Source: a virus. Taken from it: a stretch of 23,775 bases of DNA. Positions 950-10,031 of the stretch are shown here, in pieces. The position numbers and the translations under genes were made by a program. Location of the stretch: the IMG/VR virus record IMGVR_UViG_3300021085_000216, positions 1 to 23,775 of that record; one strand, written 5' to 3'. The notes under the pieces are model-generated. The model ran no database searches. It was not told where the DNA came from and worked only from the letters and a program-made list of their open reading frames with translations. Position 1 is the first letter of the stretch, and the number at the start of each line of letters is the position of its first letter.

Positions 950-1357
950 ATGTACGAATACAATTGCAAGATTGTGAGGGTAATTGATGGTGACTCAATT
1001 ATTTTGGATATCGACCTTGGTTTTAGCCACTGGATTCACAATGAGTCTATACGTTTGTACGGTGTTGATACTCCAGAGTGCCGCACACGAGATGCTGAAG
1101 AAAAAGCAGCCGGACTCTTGGCGAAGGAGTTTGTCGAAGAGGCGTTGCATGTCGGAGGAACATACACCCTCACCACCAAAGAAAAAGGAAAGTTCGGACG
1201 ATACCTCGGAACAATCTTCCTAACCGAGAAAACCTCGATAAACGCCGCTCTGGTCAAAGAAAGACTTGCCGTGCCTTATTTCGGCCAAAGTAAGGTCAAG
1301 ATAAAGGAGGCGCATTTGGCAAACAGAAAATTCTTAAAAGAAAAGGGGGTGCTATGA
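950..1357 (+). CDS. staphylococcal-nuclease-fold endonuclease (thermonuclease homologue)
   Basis: A 135-aa SNase-like nuclease. The signature is clear: VIDGDSIILDIDLGF (residues 11-25), IRLYGVDTPECR (34-45) and GKFGRYLG (80-87). Residues equivalent to the catalytic R35, D40, E43 and R87 of staphylococcal nuclease are present as R35, D40, E43 and R84, with Ca2+-binding acids in the VIDGD segment. Members hydrolyse DNA or RNA phosphodiester bonds with Ca2+. There is no signal peptide, so it should act inside the infected cell, perhaps in host DNA breakdown. The ATG at 950 follows GGGAAAAGCAAC. The end overlaps the next gene as ATGA. Confidence 0.92.
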   Translation: MYEYNCKIVRVIDGDSIILDIDLGFSHWIHNESIRLYGVDTPECRTRDAEEKAAGLLAKEFVEEALHVGGTYTLTTKEKGKFGRYLGTIFLTEKTSINAALVKERLAVPYFGQSKVKIKEAHLANRKFLKEKGVL

Positions 1358-1539
1358 CAAAAGAACGCATTACCAACCAAAAGCCCTGCGAGTCCTGCCA
1401 TGCGGTGATCCGAGCAACTAAAGGCAACACCTTCTGCGACAAATGCCAGAACCTAATCCAACAACTTAACCAAAACTGGAAGACTCACGACCAAAATAAC
1501 CTTGACTCAAATTCGTGGTTTAAGTACTTTAGGCGGTGA
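1354..1539 (+). CDS. small zinc-finger-like protein
   Basis: A 61-aa protein with two CxxC pairs, C12-E-S-C15 and C28-D-K-C31, separated by 12 residues. This fits a treble-clef or zinc-ribbon knuckle. It is coupled to the nuclease gene by ATGA, with a purine-rich GGGGG just upstream of the start. The C-terminal half is Asn/Gln-rich and helical (LIQQLNQNWKTHDQNN). A role in nucleic-acid or protein binding is plausible; no specific family is recognised. It is the last gene of the early rightward block, and its TGA lies in the 5' arm of the terminator hairpin. Confidence 0.75.
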   Translation: MTKERITNQKPCESCHAVIRATKGNTFCDKCQNLIQQLNQNWKTHDQNNLDSNSWFKYFRR

Positions 1540-1559
1540 GGGAATGGTCCCTCATTTTT
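1537..1559 (+). terminator. intrinsic terminator of the early block
   Basis: A 7-bp perfect stem TGAGGGA / TCCCTCA (1537-1543 with 1548-1554) with a 4-nt loop ATGG is followed by five T. The stop codon of the preceding gene is part of the stem, so this ends the early rightward transcript. Confidence 0.8.
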
Positions 1560-1597
1560 GTTAACAATCTATGCTAATTGTTGGTTGAAGCTTATTG

Positions 1598-1624
1598 AAC
1601 CCCGCCTCTGGTGGGGTTTTTTTT
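1598..1624 (+). terminator. second, stronger intrinsic terminator
   Basis: AACCCC(1598-1603) pairs with GGGGTT(1613-1618), extended inward by GCC/GGT (one G-T pair) around a TCT loop. The stem is followed by a run of eight T (1617-1624). It lies 40 nt after the first terminator, so the early transcript is doubly terminated before the oppositely oriented HNH gene. Confidence 0.85.
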
Positions 1625-1630
1625 GGCTTT

Positions 1631-1658
1631 TTACCCATGTTGCGTGGGTCATGGGTAA
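1631..1658. repeat. inverted repeat over the HNH stop codon
   Basis: The perfect 9-bp arms TTACCCATG (1631-1639) and CATGGGTAA (1650-1658) are separated by 10 nt. The right arm contains the end of the HNH gene. In the rightward sense it is followed by TTTTC; in the leftward sense by an A-rich tract. It could be a weak third rightward terminator or a 3'-end-stabilising hairpin for the leftward HNH transcript. Confidence 0.5.
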
Positions 1659-2173
1659 TTTTCTCTGTCAAAATGCTCATGAATGTTGTTTATCCACCAG
1701 ATAAACATATCCTGACCCAAGGTGTGCTTCATCAGATTTACCCTGGATGCGACTAACTGTACGTTTTCTCGTACGTAAGGGCCTTTAGGATTTATTCGGT
1801 CTATCGAGGCGTTGAATTCTTTTGGCTTTTTATCGCCGTAGGTGCCGTCTCTTTGATGGGTCATGAGGACGCCAGAAAGCGCGCACTTGCCGTTTTGAGC
1901 ATTCCAGAGATCTATTACCTCTTCGTTAGTTAAATCGTACTGGACGCCTTGTTTAAGCCTTTGAGATTTTAACTGCGTGTTTAAGACCCGGATGTAGGCT
2001 TCAGGGGTAGCCGAGGTTTTTTTTGATCTTTGGAGGGTCACACAGTGCCGACAGACGCCCCGTACCTGCCCCTCTTTAAAATGCTCGAACTGGGACAGCA
2101 TCTTAACTTTGTTGCAGGAAGTGCATAATCGGGAGCCTTGCGACGCTGGCTTTACTTTAGGTTGTCTTGGCAT
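1649..2173 (-). CDS. HNH homing-type endonuclease with N-terminal zinc knuckle
   Basis: A 174-aa protein from the ATG at 2173. Residues 17-44 carry two CxxC pairs (LCTSC, VCRHC), a zinc finger often found before HNH domains. The HNH part (about 85-150) shows NGKCALSGVLM, NASIDRINPKGPY and ENVQLVASRVNLMK, the usual betabetaalpha-metal signature of free-standing phage HNH nucleases, which nick or cut DNA at specific sites. No good Shine-Dalgarno precedes the ATG, because a terminator hairpin with an eight-base U tract abuts it. A TTG at 2227 with AAGGA close upstream would add 18 residues with poor protein character. The gene lies between operons in opposite orientation, typical of a mobile nuclease gene. 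Confidence 0.88.
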   Translation of the reverse strand: MPRQPKVKPASQGSRLCTSCNKVKMLSQFEHFKEGQVRGVCRHCVTLQRSKKTSATPEAYIRVLNTQLKSQRLKQGVQYDLTNEEVIDLWNAQNGKCALSGVLMTHQRDGTYGDKKPKEFNASIDRINPKGPYVRENVQLVASRVNLMKHTLGQDMFIWWINNIHEHFDRENYP

Positions 2174-2174
2174 A

Positions 2175-2260
2175 GGCAAAAAAAACCCGCGGGAGCAAAG
2201 TGTGGGAGAGCGCTCAACCGCGGGCAAAAGTCCTTCTCAAGGGATACTACCCTTCTGAAG
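2175..2260 (-). ncRNA. candidate structured leader or small RNA upstream of the HNH gene
   Basis: Read leftward, 2260-2233 folds as CTTC/GAAG, a tandem AG:GA mismatch, then AAGGG/CCCTT closing a TAGTAT loop. After 8 nt a second, GC-rich hairpin with a U tract follows (2224-2178). Nothing in this segment is convincingly coding. The first hairpin hides a GAAGG sequence that could serve a TTG at 2227, so it may be a cis-acting leader for the HNH gene. Alternatively it is a free RNA of roughly 80 nt ended by the terminator. No known RNA family is recognised. Confidence 0.4.
2178..2224 (-). terminator. strong leftward terminator or attenuator just before the HNH start
   Basis: Leftward: CCCGCGG (2224-2218), a TT bulge, GAGC (2215-2212), a 15-nt loop, then GCTC CCGCGGG (2196-2186) and eight U (2185-2178). 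That is an 11-bp GC-rich stem and U8, an excellent intrinsic terminator. It ends 5 nt before the HNH ATG, so HNH expression requires read-through or anti-termination. Confidence 0.75.
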
Positions 2261-2286
2261 CTAATGGCTTAAACCCTAACTGTCAA
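2258..2286 (-). promoter_or_regulatory. possible promoter with consensus -35 and weak -10
   Basis: Leftward TTGACA (2286-2281) is a perfect -35. At 17-bp spacing the -10 is only TAGCTT (2263-2258), three of six matches. If used, transcription would start near 2251, just before or inside the structured RNA. The weak -10 suggests dependence on an activator, or that the -35 match is chance. Confidence 0.3.
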
Positions 2287-2301
2287 CAAAAGTCTAAATA
2301 C

Positions 2302-2320
2302 AAAAACTTGTGCAGTTTTT
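2302..2320 (-). terminator. possible weak terminator after the 72-aa gene
   Basis: Leftward AAAAACT (2320-2314), a 5-nt loop and AGTTTTT (2308-2302) form a 7-bp AT-rich hairpin overlapping the stop codon of the 2319-2537 gene. The U-rich 3' arm plus GTATTT makes a weak terminator plausible; the low GC makes it uncertain. Confidence 0.35.
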
Positions 2321-2537
2321 AATGAAAATGATCTTTGGGAAATCCCTCCTCGCGAGCCATTTGAACGTGATAAGCAAGCATCTTCAGCAATGATTCGGGG
2401 TCATCAATATGCTCGGTCAGCATAGATGCAATCGCTCTTATATCTTTCTTCCAAACTTCTTTGTACATCTCTCTTAGTTCTTTTACGTTCTCTACGTCAT
2501 CAAATCCTTGATCTAACAGTGTTTTTAAGTCTTTCAT
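2319..2537 (-). CDS. small acidic helical protein, unknown function
   Basis: A 72-aa protein starting MKDLKTLLDQGFDD. The ATG at 2537 is chosen because GGAG (2547-2544) lies 6 nt upstream; an upstream ATG at 2564 would sit over the promoter. The sequence is mostly helical and acidic (ENVKELREMYKEVWKKD, DDPESLLKMLAYHVQMAREEG). No domain is recognised. It is driven by its own leftward promoter that overlaps a palindrome, opposite an HTH gene. It may therefore be part of a small regulatory switch, or an anti-host or anti-defence protein; both are inference. Confidence 0.7.
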   Translation of the reverse strand: MKDLKTLLDQGFDDVENVKELREMYKEVWKKDIRAIASMLTEHIDDPESLLKMLAYHVQMAREEGFPKDHFH

Positions 2538-2553
2538 AAAATTCTCCATTGAG

Positions 2554-2591
2554 TGTGTACACATTAAATATCATATAAAAAAGCAAATCAA
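2554..2591 (-). promoter_or_regulatory. leftward promoter with palindromic operator candidate
   Basis: Leftward TTGATT (2591-2586), a 17-bp spacer and TTTAAT (2568-2563) match a sigma70 promoter well, with a start near 2556. The perfect 10-bp palindrome TGTGTACACA (2554-2563) covers the last -10 base and the start point, where a repressor would block initiation. Confidence 0.6.
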
Positions 2592-2592
2592 G

Positions 2593-2626
2593 TTGTTTCT
2601 CACACGTTTTTCTTATATTATGTGTG
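2593..2626 (+). promoter_or_regulatory. rightward promoter of the HTH gene, flanked by CACAC/GTGTG half-sites
   Basis: TTGTTT (2593-2598), 17 bp, then TATTAT (2616-2621), five of six matches. An inverted repeat CACAC (2601-2605) and GTGTG (2622-2626) brackets the spacer and -10 and echoes the TGTG/CACA of the palindrome on the other side. Together the two promoters make a divergent control region of about 110 bp. Confidence 0.55.
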
Positions 2627-2650
2627 CTTTAAAATTGAAGGGGAACACTA

Positions 2651-2815
2651 ATGACACCGCATCACGCAGCGAAATATCCTTTTGAAATAGTCGAAGCAGT
2701 CAGATACGCTAAGAACGTAGAGAAACGTTCTGTTAAATGGATAGCGAGACATTATGACATCCCCATTGATACCATCCGAGATTGGTTGTACCGAGGTAGA
2801 CGAGCTAACGATTGA
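2651..2815 (+). CDS. small helix-turn-helix DNA-binding protein
   Basis: A 54-aa protein. After MTPHHAAKYPFEIVEAVRYAK the segment KRSVKWIARHYDIPIDTI followed by RDWLYRGRR is a classic HTH of the homeodomain-like, transposase or resolvase type (W-I-A-x-x-Y-x-I-x-x-x-T-I-x-x-W). A basic tail follows. The start has GAAGGGG upstream (2637-2643) and a good promoter. Its position beside divergent promoters with palindromes suggests a local repressor or activator, possibly autoregulatory. The second recognition helix would be TIRDWLYRG. Confidence 0.75.
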   Translation: MTPHHAAKYPFEIVEAVRYAKNVEKRSVKWIARHYDIPIDTIRDWLYRGRRAND

Positions 2816-3011
2816 GGCCGAAGAGCAGTTATTTTGCTGCCCGCGTTGTGAGAAACGATTTTTAGCCTACGTAGAAGTAGTAAACGGTAATACCGACGAA
2901 ATGCCGGTAGTTGAGCTAATACTGTGCACCCAATGTGAAGAGTCTTTTGATGCGGCTAACCTTTACCTCCTTTGGCTCGATTGGAACAATTCTGAGGATA
3001 CGATTCATTAG
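2754..3011 (+). CDS. small zinc-ribbon protein
   Basis: An 85-aa ORF with C29-P-R-C32 and C58-T-Q-C61 (plus C28), spaced by 25 residues of beta-like sequence. This is a typical two-knuckle zinc ribbon, followed by an acidic, aromatic C-terminus. The only in-frame ATG (2754) makes it overlap the HTH gene by 62 nt, unusual here. The first 20 residues lack similarity to the rest and may be untranslated. Initiation at an unusual codon near 2811, or a +1 frameshift joining the HTH to the ribbon, are alternatives. No strong ribosome binding site is seen. The partner and function are unknown. Confidence 0.6.
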   Translation: MTSPLIPSEIGCTEVDELTIEAEEQLFCCPRCEKRFLAYVEVVNGNTDEMPVVELILCTQCEESFDAANLYLLWLDWNNSEDTIH

Positions 3012-3096
3012 TCTTATCTTTTAACTTTTTGTACTCAAGAATAAAAGCAATAAGCTCGTCTATATCGGTATCCTCAAGCTCCACTGTTATTTTCAT
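2956..3096 (-). CDS. tiny hypothetical protein at the end of the replication operon
   Basis: A 46-aa ORF starting MKITVELEDTDIDELIAFILEYKK. AAGGA stands 5 nt before the ATG at 3096. It overlaps the preceding 56-aa gene by 23 nt and, antisense, the last 56 nt of the zinc-ribbon gene. The beta strand followed by an acidic helix looks protein-like, whereas the C-terminus (NCSNRAKGGKG), lying antisense to the zinc-ribbon gene, does not. Unknown function. Confidence 0.5.
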   Translation of the reverse strand: MKITVELEDTDIDELIAFILEYKKLKDKTNESYPQNCSNRAKGGKG

Positions 3097-3244
3097 TCTT
3101 TTCCTTAATCTCTTCTCTAAGCTTAATCATCTCTGACCAAACTTTAGCTTTATCGACAGAATCCCGGGAAACTTCTTCCGAGTCCATTTCTCTCTTCAAC
3201 TTTAAAAGGGCCTCTTTGAGACCCTCTTCAATTGAATTGCTCAT
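3074..3244 (-). CDS. small coiled-coil-like hypothetical protein
   Basis: A 56-aa ORF beginning MSNSIEEGLKEALLKLKR. Its ATG overlaps the stop of the upstream RHH gene as ATGA, so translation is coupled. It is almost entirely a charged helix rich in Glu and Lys. No domain is recognised. It is cotranscribed with the RHH gene from the promoter at 3522-3495. Confidence 0.65.
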   Translation of the reverse strand: MSNSIEEGLKEALLKLKREMDSEEVSRDSVDKAKVWSEMIKLREEIKEKNENNSGA

Positions 3245-3471
3245 CTTGTGAACTCCGGACGAGGCCGACCTTCTTCTATGCGTTTGTTTTCCATTTCTTC
3301 TAAAAGATAGGCTTTGTCTTTCTGGCTAAGGTTTTCCCCTACCCAGTAATCAAAGATAAGCCTAAGCTGCCCGCTAAGCGTGCGCCCTTCTACTTTAGAA
3401 ACGATGTATAGCTGGTCATACACTTCACGCGGAAGCAAAACCGATTTCCATTTGTTTGTATCCAAAACCAT
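3241..3471 (-). CDS. ribbon-helix-helix (CopG/Arc-like) DNA-binding protein
   Basis: A 76-aa protein. After a short N-terminus, WKSVLLPREVYDQLYIVSKV, then EGRTLSGQLRLIFDYWV, gives one beta strand and two helices in the RHH pattern: strand, conserved Pro/Glu at the start of helix 1, Gly/Arg/Ser turn. RHH proteins dimerise and insert the strand into the DNA major groove. The ATG at 3471 has AGGAGA almost touching it, so spacing is poor; a TTG two codons later would be better placed, giving nearly the same protein. It has its own promoter and may autoregulate the small 3' cluster. Confidence 0.7.
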   Translation of the reverse strand: MVLDTNKWKSVLLPREVYDQLYIVSKVEGRTLSGQLRLIFDYWVGENLSQKDKAYLLEEMENKRIEEGRPRPEFTR

Positions 3472-3494
3472 TCTCCTGAACCTTTATGTATGAG

Positions 3495-3522
3495 ATTATA
3501 TAATACTACTCAGTAATTTCAA
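3495..3522 (-). promoter_or_regulatory. internal promoter in the end of the polymerase gene
   Basis: Leftward TTGAAA (3522-3517), a 16-bp spacer and a consensus TATAAT (3500-3495). The -35 is inside the last codons of the DNA polymerase. The start would fall near 3488, giving a short leader before the RHH gene at 3471. Confidence 0.6.
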
Positions 3523-5425
3523 CAAATTCTCCCCAATTAGGGCCCATTTCTATGTCGCATTTGCTTGGAACAACCAGTTCTACCGCGCTAGTCATGATCT
3601 TGGATAGCCCCTGGGCCTCTTCTTTGTCTTTAACGCTAAACGCCAGTTCGTCATGCACTTGCAACATAGGCGTCTTTCCTGCCCGGTAACAGTCCAACAT
3701 TGCCTGCTTAGTCATATCCGCGGCACTGGCCTGGATGAGCCTGTTTAGTGCTTTGTACGTGAATGCACGCTTGAGCCTGGTCGTTGGTCCGTAGGCCGCG
3801 GCTGCTTCTTCGTAAGGCATGGCCTTGTTCATTTCAAAGCTATCGGGCTCCCACAAGTCGAACCGACACTTACGCCCCTTGATGCTTCGTATAGAGCCCG
3901 GAGAGCGTGGATCTTCTAAGTGCCTCTGTATGCCCTGGGTCAGTCCTTTAACGAAAGGAACGCGGTTGTGGTACTTCTTAACGAGGGCCTTGGCTTCATC
4001 TAACGTAATGTCTAACTGCGCCGCCAATTTCTGCGCTCCCATGCCGTACATCATCGCCAAATTAATGACCTTCGCTTGTTTACGAGGTATGTCCGCCATC
4101 TCGGCGACCATGGTATGAAAGTCCATGTCTGGGTTTTCGTTGTACGCTTTAACAAACTCTTCGACACCCGGCATGTTTAGCTTGCGGTAGTCGCCGAACA
4201 CCTTTGCATAATGGGTCAAGATGCGTGGTTCCTGCTGCGAGAAATCTATTGCCGCCCACTGCTCACCTTCTTCCGGAAGAAACAGTTTGCGGATCAAAGG
4301 CCCGATGGTAGGGTCACGGCTCGGAATTTGTTGCATGTTCGGGTTGTTCATAGAAATGCGACCGGAGACTGTCCCGCCTTGATCAGAACGCACCTGATTA
4401 ATGTGACTGTGTATCCTACCGTCGCGCGCTACGTGCTTAATTAGCCCGTCAATAAAGCTGCCTTGAGTTTTATTTAAGTTACGCGCCCTGACTATCGCTT
4501 GTGCAAGCTCGTGCGGGTGCTCGCTCAAGAAAGTTTTGGTGAAGCTCGGGGCTCCTTTTTCGGTGCAGGGGTAAGTTATCCCTACTTTGTCGAACGCTTT
4601 GGCTATTGATGCTGCGGCCCAGATCTCTACATCATGACCCGCGAGCCGTTTGATATTCTTTCTCACTTCCTTTTCTTGCTGCATCAAATGTTGCTTCGTG
4701 CGCTCGGCCTGGTCTACATCGAAACGTATACCTTTCTCTGTCATCTCAACTAAGCAAGGCAGTAGGTCTGTCTCAAGGTTCCAGATGTCCCACAGATCTT
4801 CTTTGTTAAGAAGGTTCTTAAAGTGGTTCCACAATTCTAATGTAATCTCGGCATCGACCTCCGCGTAAGGACCAACATACATAGCGGGCAACTTCCACAT
4901 CTCAGCCTTCGGATCGACGCCAAACTCAACAGCCGCAGCGGTGAGCGTCTGCTCAGACTTTGTCTTGCCCAAGTACTCGTAACACAGCGCGTTAAGGCTG
5001 TAGCTAAAACGGTTTTCGTCGAGAAGGGCTGCGGTTAACATGGTGTCTATGACGCGTCCCTTTACTTCAAAACCCATAGCACGTATCCACCCAAGGTCGT
5101 ACTGGGCGTTGTGCATGATCTTATCGCCTGGCGCTTCGAACACTTTCTTGAGCCATTTGTTTATCTGTCGGGCGTCCATGTTGCCGCCGCCAAGATGGTT
5201 GACCGGGAAGTAACCTTTCCAACCGGGTATGGCTATAGCGTAACCAACCACCTCACCATTCTTAGTCGGCCACCCTGGACCAAACGTTTTAAGGTCCGGG
5301 TCGCGTGTCTCGACGTCTATGGCTATTTCTTTTGCTTCTAACACCGCGTCAGGGAACGGATGCTCCGGAGGCAGCCAGTCGGACTGAGGGGGAAACATCG
5401 CCATCTGCAATTTGTTATTGGCCAT
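3506..5425 (-). CDS. family A DNA polymerase with 3'-5' exonuclease domain
   Basis: A 639-aa replicative polymerase. Exonuclease motifs: DVETRD (D37, E39), HNAQYD (N106, D110) and YAEVD (187-191). Polymerase motifs: A, IDFSQQEPR (D394); B, RKQAKVINLAMMYGMG (R448, K452, Y460); C, VHDE (H591, D592, E593). All catalytic acids are present, so both activities should work. The position equal to E. coli Pol I Phe762 is Leu456. There is no 5'-3' exonuclease domain, as in T7-type enzymes. The ATG at 5425 has GGAG upstream and overlaps the previous stop by 11 nt; starting further upstream would run through the previous gene. It lies in the replication operon after helicase and primase genes. Confidence 0.96.
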   Translation of the reverse strand: MANNKLQMAMFPPQSDWLPPEHPFPDAVLEAKEIAIDVETRDPDLKTFGPGWPTKNGEVVGYAIAIPGWKGYFPVNHLGGGNMDARQINKWLKKVFEAPGDKIMHNAQYDLGWIRAMGFEVKGRVIDTMLTAALLDENRFSYSLNALCYEYLGKTKSEQTLTAAAVEFGVDPKAEMWKLPAMYVGPYAEVDAEITLELWNHFKNLLNKEDLWDIWNLETDLLPCLVEMTEKGIRFDVDQAERTKQHLMQQEKEVRKNIKRLAGHDVEIWAAASIAKAFDKVGITYPCTEKGAPSFTKTFLSEHPHELAQAIVRARNLNKTQGSFIDGLIKHVARDGRIHSHINQVRSDQGGTVSGRISMNNPNMQQIPSRDPTIGPLIRKLFLPEEGEQWAAIDFSQQEPRILTHYAKVFGDYRKLNMPGVEEFVKAYNENPDMDFHTMVAEMADIPRKQAKVINLAMMYGMGAQKLAAQLDITLDEAKALVKKYHNRVPFVKGLTQGIQRHLEDPRSPGSIRSIKGRKCRFDLWEPDSFEMNKAMPYEEAAAAYGPTTRLKRAFTYKALNRLIQASAADMTKQAMLDCYRAGKTPMLQVHDELAFSVKDKEEAQGLSKIMTSAVELVVPSKCDIEMGPNWGEFVEITE

Positions 5426-5597
5426 TGGCTGCTCTCCAAGTTTTCTCCCTGAGTATGGCTTCTGAAAAATGCTGACACTTAGGGCAGTACCAACCAAGTC
5501 TTTCGTTCTTCTGCACGTTCACTACGGCAGTTGCTTTCTTATCACCGCAGGATAAGCAGGCGTTGTAATACATAGGATCGATGTCTTGTTTTTTCAT
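5415..5597 (-). CDS. small zinc-binding protein between helicase and polymerase genes
   Basis: A 60-aa protein with C14-L-S-C17 and C38-P-K-C41, a single zinc ribbon (NACLSCGDKKATAVVNV...GWYCPKCQHFSE). Its start overlaps the helicase stop as ATGA and its end overlaps the polymerase start by 11 nt, so all three are translationally coupled. It has no clear Shine-Dalgarno of its own. A replisome accessory role is suggested by the tight coupling, not by any recognised domain. Confidence 0.75.
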   Translation of the reverse strand: MKKQDIDPMYYNACLSCGDKKATAVVNVQKNERLGWYCPKCQHFSEAILREKTWRAANGQ

Positions 5598-9458: not shown

Positions 9459-10031
9459 TTATTTACCTTTTTTAATGTTTGCACGTTGGCCAACGAAGGC
9501 CCCGAATAAGTCCATAGGAAACTCGTCACCGGTTTCTACACGCTCTCTTACAAAAGCTTTAAGTGTAGAGGGGTGAACTTCCTCCTTTTGGTCTGCATGA
9601 ACGCCTTGTTCAGCAGCTACCTTTAAGAACTGCTCAGCCTGGGAATCTTCGCCGCGGCCAAACACGCATGAAACGGTGTTCTTAATGATGTCGTCAAAAC
9701 CATTATCACGCAGCCAGCCAAAAGCCTGAGATCGATTATCAATCTTTATGTGTGCGCCATACGTGGGTTTGAGTTCGACCTTGCTTCCATCTTCTAGTTC
9801 GAACTTTGTCAGTCCGATTTCATGGAGCAAAGCAGGGAGGTCTTCGTCGGTAAGCTTAAGAAGTTTTTTCTTTTCTTCTTTAAGCCTGTCTTCCAACTGT
9901 ACAACCAATGCGTCTTGCGCAGTTACGGCACGAGCCATTTCTGCGACAGTTTGCAAGCCTTCAGTATTTACAGAGTCTAACGCGGAAACATCGGCTTGAT
10001 CTGATTCCATCTCTTCGAACAGGTTTGTCAT
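9459..10031 (-). CDS. coiled-coil phage protein of the replication operon, unknown function
   Basis: A 190-aa protein starting MTNLFEEMESDQADVS. The ATG at 10031 has GGAGA 7 nt upstream; an in-frame ATG at 10079 lies in the promoter region and is unlikely. Residues about 38-62 (VVQLEDRLKEEKKKLLKL) are a coiled coil, followed by LPALLHEIGLTKFELEDGSKV and beta strands. The C-terminal half (TLKAFVRERVETGDEFPMDLFGAFVGQ) is mixed alpha/beta with a basic end. It is the first gene of the leftward replication operon. I recall this as a recurrent neighbour of ssDNA-binding-like genes in phages but know no function. Confidence 0.75.
   Translation of the reverse strand: MTNLFEEMESDQADVSALDSVNTEGLQTVAEMARAVTAQDALVVQLEDRLKEEKKKLLKLTDEDLPALLHEIGLTKFELEDGSKVELKPTYGAHIKIDNRSQAFGWLRDNGFDDIIKNTVSCVFGRGEDSQAEQFLKVAAEQGVHADQKEEVHPSTLKAFVRERVETGDEFPMDLFGAFVGQRANIKKGK

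Follow-up and report, generated by a model that had tools for sequence, protein, structure and literature searches.

Phages are known to encode small untranslated RNAs, among them OOP of lambda and sar of P22; OOP is provided with its own promoter and with an intrinsic terminator that forms its 3' end. The sar RNA measures 68/69 nt, and in the cyanophage S-PM2 an antisense RNA, CfrI, lies between psbA and a homing endonuclease gene (PMC12197685). In T4-like phages, terminators or hairpins are found at several homing endonuclease genes (mobE, segF, segD and seg43(25)) (PMC2988022).

The DNA analyzed here, referred to as the window, is a 23.8-kb viral record (23,775 nt). Its gene order SNF2-206-257-primase-UvrD-PolA corresponds to the replication block of phage DSL-LC04 and is also largely matched by that of 023Pt_psg01. 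The PolA sequence was 57.5% identical to that of DSL-LC04, and HTVC023P-type pelagiphages were also among its nearest relatives (50%). Based on this replication gene order and on the PolA relatives, the window appears to be part of the genome of an uncultivated phage, probably marine, with a distant relationship to DSL-LC04, 023Pt_psg01 and HTVC023P-type viruses.

At the meeting point of two converging gene units in the window, a short element on the minus strand (2286-2178) lies between orf81 (2564-2319, minus strand) and an HNH gene (2173-1649). It resembles OOP and sar in that it would encode, as predicted from sequence, a short untranslated phage RNA of similar size, and OOP in particular in having its own promoter-like boxes and a 3' end formed by an intrinsic terminator. 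OOP and sar differ from the element in having a known phage transcript to which they are antisense or with which they pair; the complementarity of the element was at chance level and no Rfam match was found for it. As with CfrI, the putative non-coding RNA would be placed beside a homing-endonuclease gene in a marine phage, yet CfrI is ~225 nt long and antisense to psbA, whereas the element is ~75 nt long, is not antisense to any gene, and is retained where the endonuclease is missing. The arrangement is also similar to that of T4-type free-standing endonuclease genes that follow a terminator or a strong hairpin, or contain one; in those cases, however, the hairpins hide the ribosome-binding site of the endonuclease or sit in its coding region, while the hairpin unit of the element is endonuclease-independent.

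Anatomy and folding of the element

The features of the locus, all on the minus strand, are the following:

2281-2286, minus: -35-like hexamer TTGACA; TTGAC is invariant in 16/16 distinct aligned copies, and conservation starts here
2258-2263, minus: -10-like hexamer TAGCTT, 17 bp from the -35 box in every copy, the spacer sequence being variable
2178-2252, minus: predicted small RNA of ~75 nt, based on anatomy and on conservation in 25 contigs
2239-2254, minus: 5' hairpin AAGGG-UAGUAU-CCCUU, with 90% of alignment cells paired among 16 copies and 2/5 pairs changed on both sides
2225-2238, minus: single-stranded linker GAGAAGGACUUUUG, in which UGAGAAG is invariant in all copies
2186-2224, minus: terminator stem-loop CCCGCGG-UU-GAGC...GCUC-CCGCGGG, paired in every alignment cell with letters on both sides
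2178-2185, minus: terminator U8 tract, read directly
1649-2173, minus: HNH / endonuclease VII-like gene, 174 aa from its ATG (phrog_1035, E 3e-19)

The arrangement TTGACA-N17-TAGCTT (2286-2258), which the initial annotation had overlooked directly upstream of the first hairpin, was the sole occurrence in the window under the pattern used (0.04 expected). The boxes would be of the sigma-70 type, with TAGCTT representing a poor -10 match (3/6 positions shared with TATAAT), and the position of the -10 box would place the transcription start near 2252-2250.

Folding bore out the initial description of a leader filled by two hairpins and a terminator: hairpin 1 (2260-2233, minus) reached -12.2 kcal/mol (z -2.0), the terminator hairpin (2224-2186) with its U8 tract (2185-2178) reached -20.5 kcal/mol for 55 nt (z -3.9, with 0/200 shuffles equally stable), and both hairpins together, over 87 nt, gave a z of -2.7. 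The terminator was absent from an automatic terminator scan because its loop exceeds 8 nt; loop length varied from ~4 to 16 nt among copies. Other structural details in that annotation needed revision. The 11-bp GC stem followed by U8 does contain 11 pairs and eight U, as an interrupted helix of 7 bp, a 2-nt UU bulge and 4 bp rather than as a continuous one; the supposed tandem A-G/G-A mismatch is a 2x2 loop opposing A/A and G/G, not a sheared tandem G-A, and is not conserved; and the distance between the U-tract and the HNH ATG at 2173 is 4 nt, not 5. The GAAGG close to a TTG codon at 2227 was found as described, but other genomes carry TTTCGC or GTTAGC there, and the codon from which a protein had been proposed to start is not conserved. 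Because the putative -10 box (TAGCTTC) shares positions with the outer CUUC/GAAG stem (2260-2257 with 2236-2233), this stem and the internal loop of hairpin 1 probably lie outside the RNA.

The terminator helix was paired in 16/16 copies, and stem and U-tract were present in every full copy. Three pairs in the whole structure were changed on both sides, one of these in the terminator helix, and these changes vanished when partner columns were slid by 1-3 positions. Such high sequence conservation leaves room for only modest covariation, and the case for the element rests mainly on other evidence. The two hairpins coexist, with no mutually exclusive terminator and antiterminator folds: the 5' arm of the terminator showed an upstream pairing probability of ~0.000-0.002 in the 13 copies with HNH-type sequence, and the terminator formed with a probability of ~0.88 in the three copies of the lineage that lacks the HNH gene (L088 type). 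A switch is unlikely since the 5' arm has no upstream partner.

A second strong intrinsic terminator was observed in the window on the plus strand (1597-1619; CCCCGCC-TCT-GGTGGGG followed by a T run, z -5.6), after the rightward SNase genes and facing the HNH gene.

Conservation in related marine phages

The element was found in 25 contigs, including the window, from one group of uncultivated marine phages, by means of HNH-based, PolA-based and pattern searches together with matches to a model (R1). Seventeen of them, counting the window, carry the HNH gene, one has an HNH remnant, six lack the gene, and one is cut by the contig end. Each element-bearing record searched contained one copy, and 16 distinct copies were aligned. 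The conserved block extends from the -35 box to the U-tract; conservation drops upstream, where the sequence is unrelated between lineages, and also downstream in those genomes where HNH is absent. Within the block, little or no variation was seen in TTGAC, TAGCTT, the 17-bp spacing, UGAGAAG, the terminator arms and the U-tract; the spacer and loop sequences vary. The block is devoid of coding potential; coding is unlikely because copies differ by indels of 1-3 nt and no start codon is conserved after the GAAGG.

The family is restricted to a single group of phages. A strict pattern had no match in bacterial and archaeal genomes, a looser one retrieved nothing beyond copies already known and matches that were coding or due to chance, and in one pattern search 4/7 new matches (L183, L185/L186, L188, L189) looked like chance hits in other phages. 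The element was not found in the scanned regions of the isolate phages DSL-LC04 and 023Pt_psg01, nor in most related PolA or capsid contigs, and no isolate phage was matched when the 2-kb locus was used as query in a DNA similarity search.

Since two gene units converge at this site in the window, a terminator would be expected there, and the element could be seen as no more than a terminator at the end of an operon, combined with a promoter-like insulator, in which case any short transcript would be a by-product. Such a function would not conserve TTGAC, the length of the 17-bp spacer, TAGCTT, the 5' hairpin and the UGAGAAG linker, and we regard it as unlikely.

Relationship with the HNH gene

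The neighbours of the element differ among genomes. Downstream, it is followed by HNH, by an HNH remnant or by a convergent SNase gene. In L088 and five further contigs of the same lineage the SNase gene follows directly and no HNH match was detected, while in L175 the HNH gene is cut in frame to ~35 codons next to an intact element; the HNH-less genomes bearing the element thus represent one close lineage, and the remnant a single deletion in a single metagenomic contig. The L175 deletion (9750-9946, minus strand) is internal to the gene, with short TGAAG repeats at its junction, and fits a decaying mobile gene. Upstream, orf81 is present in some genomes, others (L035, L036, G001 type) have a different short ORF with its stop overlapping the -35 box, and neither occurs in L007 and L175. 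Moreover, in G001 the whole block of orf81, element, HNH and SNase genes is inverted relative to PolA-RHH, and the element moves along with it. The extent of this inversion between the lineages of the window and of G001 can be followed by comparing L191 (1234-8168) with the window (950-5497), the block comprising SNase, HNH, small RNA and orf81.

HNH relatives up to 90% identical to that of the window were found at another locus, where they follow the major capsid gene and a GGGGGCTTCGGCCCCC terminator and have no element upstream, and the element-bearing G001 has no HNH at the capsid locus. Because its presence and absence differ at the element and capsid loci, the HNH gene is considered mobile, and it lies behind terminators at two unrelated loci. 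A mobile endonuclease gene would thus have settled directly behind the small-RNA terminator, as its relatives did behind the terminator of the capsid gene.

The initial annotation had also considered that the HNH gene might be attenuated, that is, that transcripts starting upstream would mostly stop at the terminator and yield low expression of the endonuclease. A spacing of 4 nt does separate the terminator from the HNH ATG in the window, and 16 further contigs show a similar arrangement; the capsid-locus relatives are likewise directly behind a strong terminator, and in T4, terminators or hairpins have been described at, or ahead of, the starts of free-standing endonucleases (PMC2988022). 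Against this, the element persists without HNH and beside the HNH remnant, HNH relatives occur elsewhere without the element, the 5' arm has no antiterminator pairing, and no alternative start codon is conserved. The persistence of the element without HNH, together with the occurrence of HNH without the element, therefore argues that the element is not an HNH leader, and we consider regulation of this type rather improbable; a passive block to read-through into HNH is possible. Hiding of a ribosome-binding site, as in T4-type systems, was rejected, as the stretch from the U-tract to the ATG at 2173 contains no Shine-Dalgarno sequence, and the GAAGG (2236-2232) lies ~60 nt upstream, beyond the terminator. 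In terms of sequence comparison, the element is best described as a gene of its own, and HNH as a neighbour that can be absent.

At the capsid locus, a shorter, related motif (TATCYCCTTGAGAAG plus a CCCG terminator) occurs just downstream of HNH. The HNH relatives there are placed between two terminators, the downstream one sharing the TATCYCCTTGAGAAG and CCCG stem with the small-RNA element (L010 3690-4330, L015 3940-4600, L197 3406-3520). Matches of the model to this motif were weak (E 0.0004-0.02), L197 keeps the motif at the capsid locus without HNH, and the capsid-locus copy lacks the TTGACA and TAGCTT boxes. Common descent of the motif and the element is suggested by these weak matches. 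That both the small-RNA gene and the capsid-locus terminator unit share an origin, and that HNH homes to such a terminator/small-RNA module, seems doubtful to us; if true, it would represent a mobile endonuclease whose specialised target is a phage small-RNA gene, not a protein gene, an intron or a tRNA. It is very improbable that the element serves chiefly as a DNA site, for instance one recognised by the HNH endonuclease: the weakly matching motif does recur downstream of the capsid-locus HNH and is retained in L197 without the gene, but the conserved promoter boxes and terminator pairing go beyond a mere site, the boxes are missing from the capsid-locus copy, and the usual cleavage site of free-standing endonucleases lies in a neighbouring gene.

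In many related phages, outside the window, the gene after the capsid gene is preceded by another conserved structured leader element (CCGG..GTGTATCTGACAGTCCCGGCTGACGACATGCAGACAGATGCAC..AACTCGCATGTGAGGA), located in L203 after 3406 and present also in L197, L201, L208, L219, L230, L242, L253, L260, L263, L268 and L274. Ten of its 16 predicted pairs were changed on both sides, and no gathering-level Rfam match was found in four loci carrying it. It may be an undescribed cis-regulatory RNA.

A candidate small-RNA gene

The element is likely to be a free-standing phage small-RNA gene with its own promoter and terminator, producing an untranslated RNA of ~75 nt that probably acts in trans. The possibility that a small RNA is made here had been raised in the initial annotation, and is supported by promoter-like boxes and a terminator that bound the conserved block exactly, as well as by the persistence of this block without HNH (6 contigs, one lineage), beside the L175 remnant, and with different upstream neighbours; the alternative of an attenuated HNH gene was disfavored by the independence of the element, the capsid-locus HNH genes lacking it and the absence of an alternative pairing for the 5' arm. 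Host RNA polymerase would most likely start at TTGACA-N17-TAGCTT, and transcription would end at the intrinsic terminator. From 5' to 3', the predicted RNA would consist of a small hairpin, the conserved UGAGAAG(GAC) linker in exposed form, and the terminator hairpin followed by the U-tail; it would probably act by base-pairing of the linker with a host or phage transcript. Trans action via an exposed linker is the commonest mode for such RNAs.

Duplex scores against the gene starts of the window reached a best z of only -1.6, with no target above chance, and complementarity to transcripts outside the own locus was at chance level in three genomes. Both pairing with window gene starts and an antisense relation to a phage gene were thus discarded as candidates; with no complementary transcript exceeding chance in the three genomes, a role as cis-antisense RNA is unlikely, and since no phage target scored above chance, trans-acting regulation is what we infer rather than observe. 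A role as primer at a replication origin was also rejected, as the cumulative GC skew follows gene strand in the window, and in the 51.8-kb relative G001 it does not turn at the element. In agreement with the earlier statement that no known RNA class is recognised, no match to Rfam 15 was obtained at the gathering cut-off in the window or in seven related loci, the sub-threshold matches being of chance level (E 0.25-5). The element would then constitute a new predicted family within a known kind, the phage small RNAs.

Few small RNAs have been described from marine phages, and the present element is well bounded by comparative evidence, surviving both the loss of its neighbour and the inversion of its locus. 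As HNH sits behind terminators at two unrelated loci, a terminator preceding a mobile HNH gene is not necessarily its regulator. The predicted RNA provides a concrete 75-nt candidate for marine metatranscriptomes.
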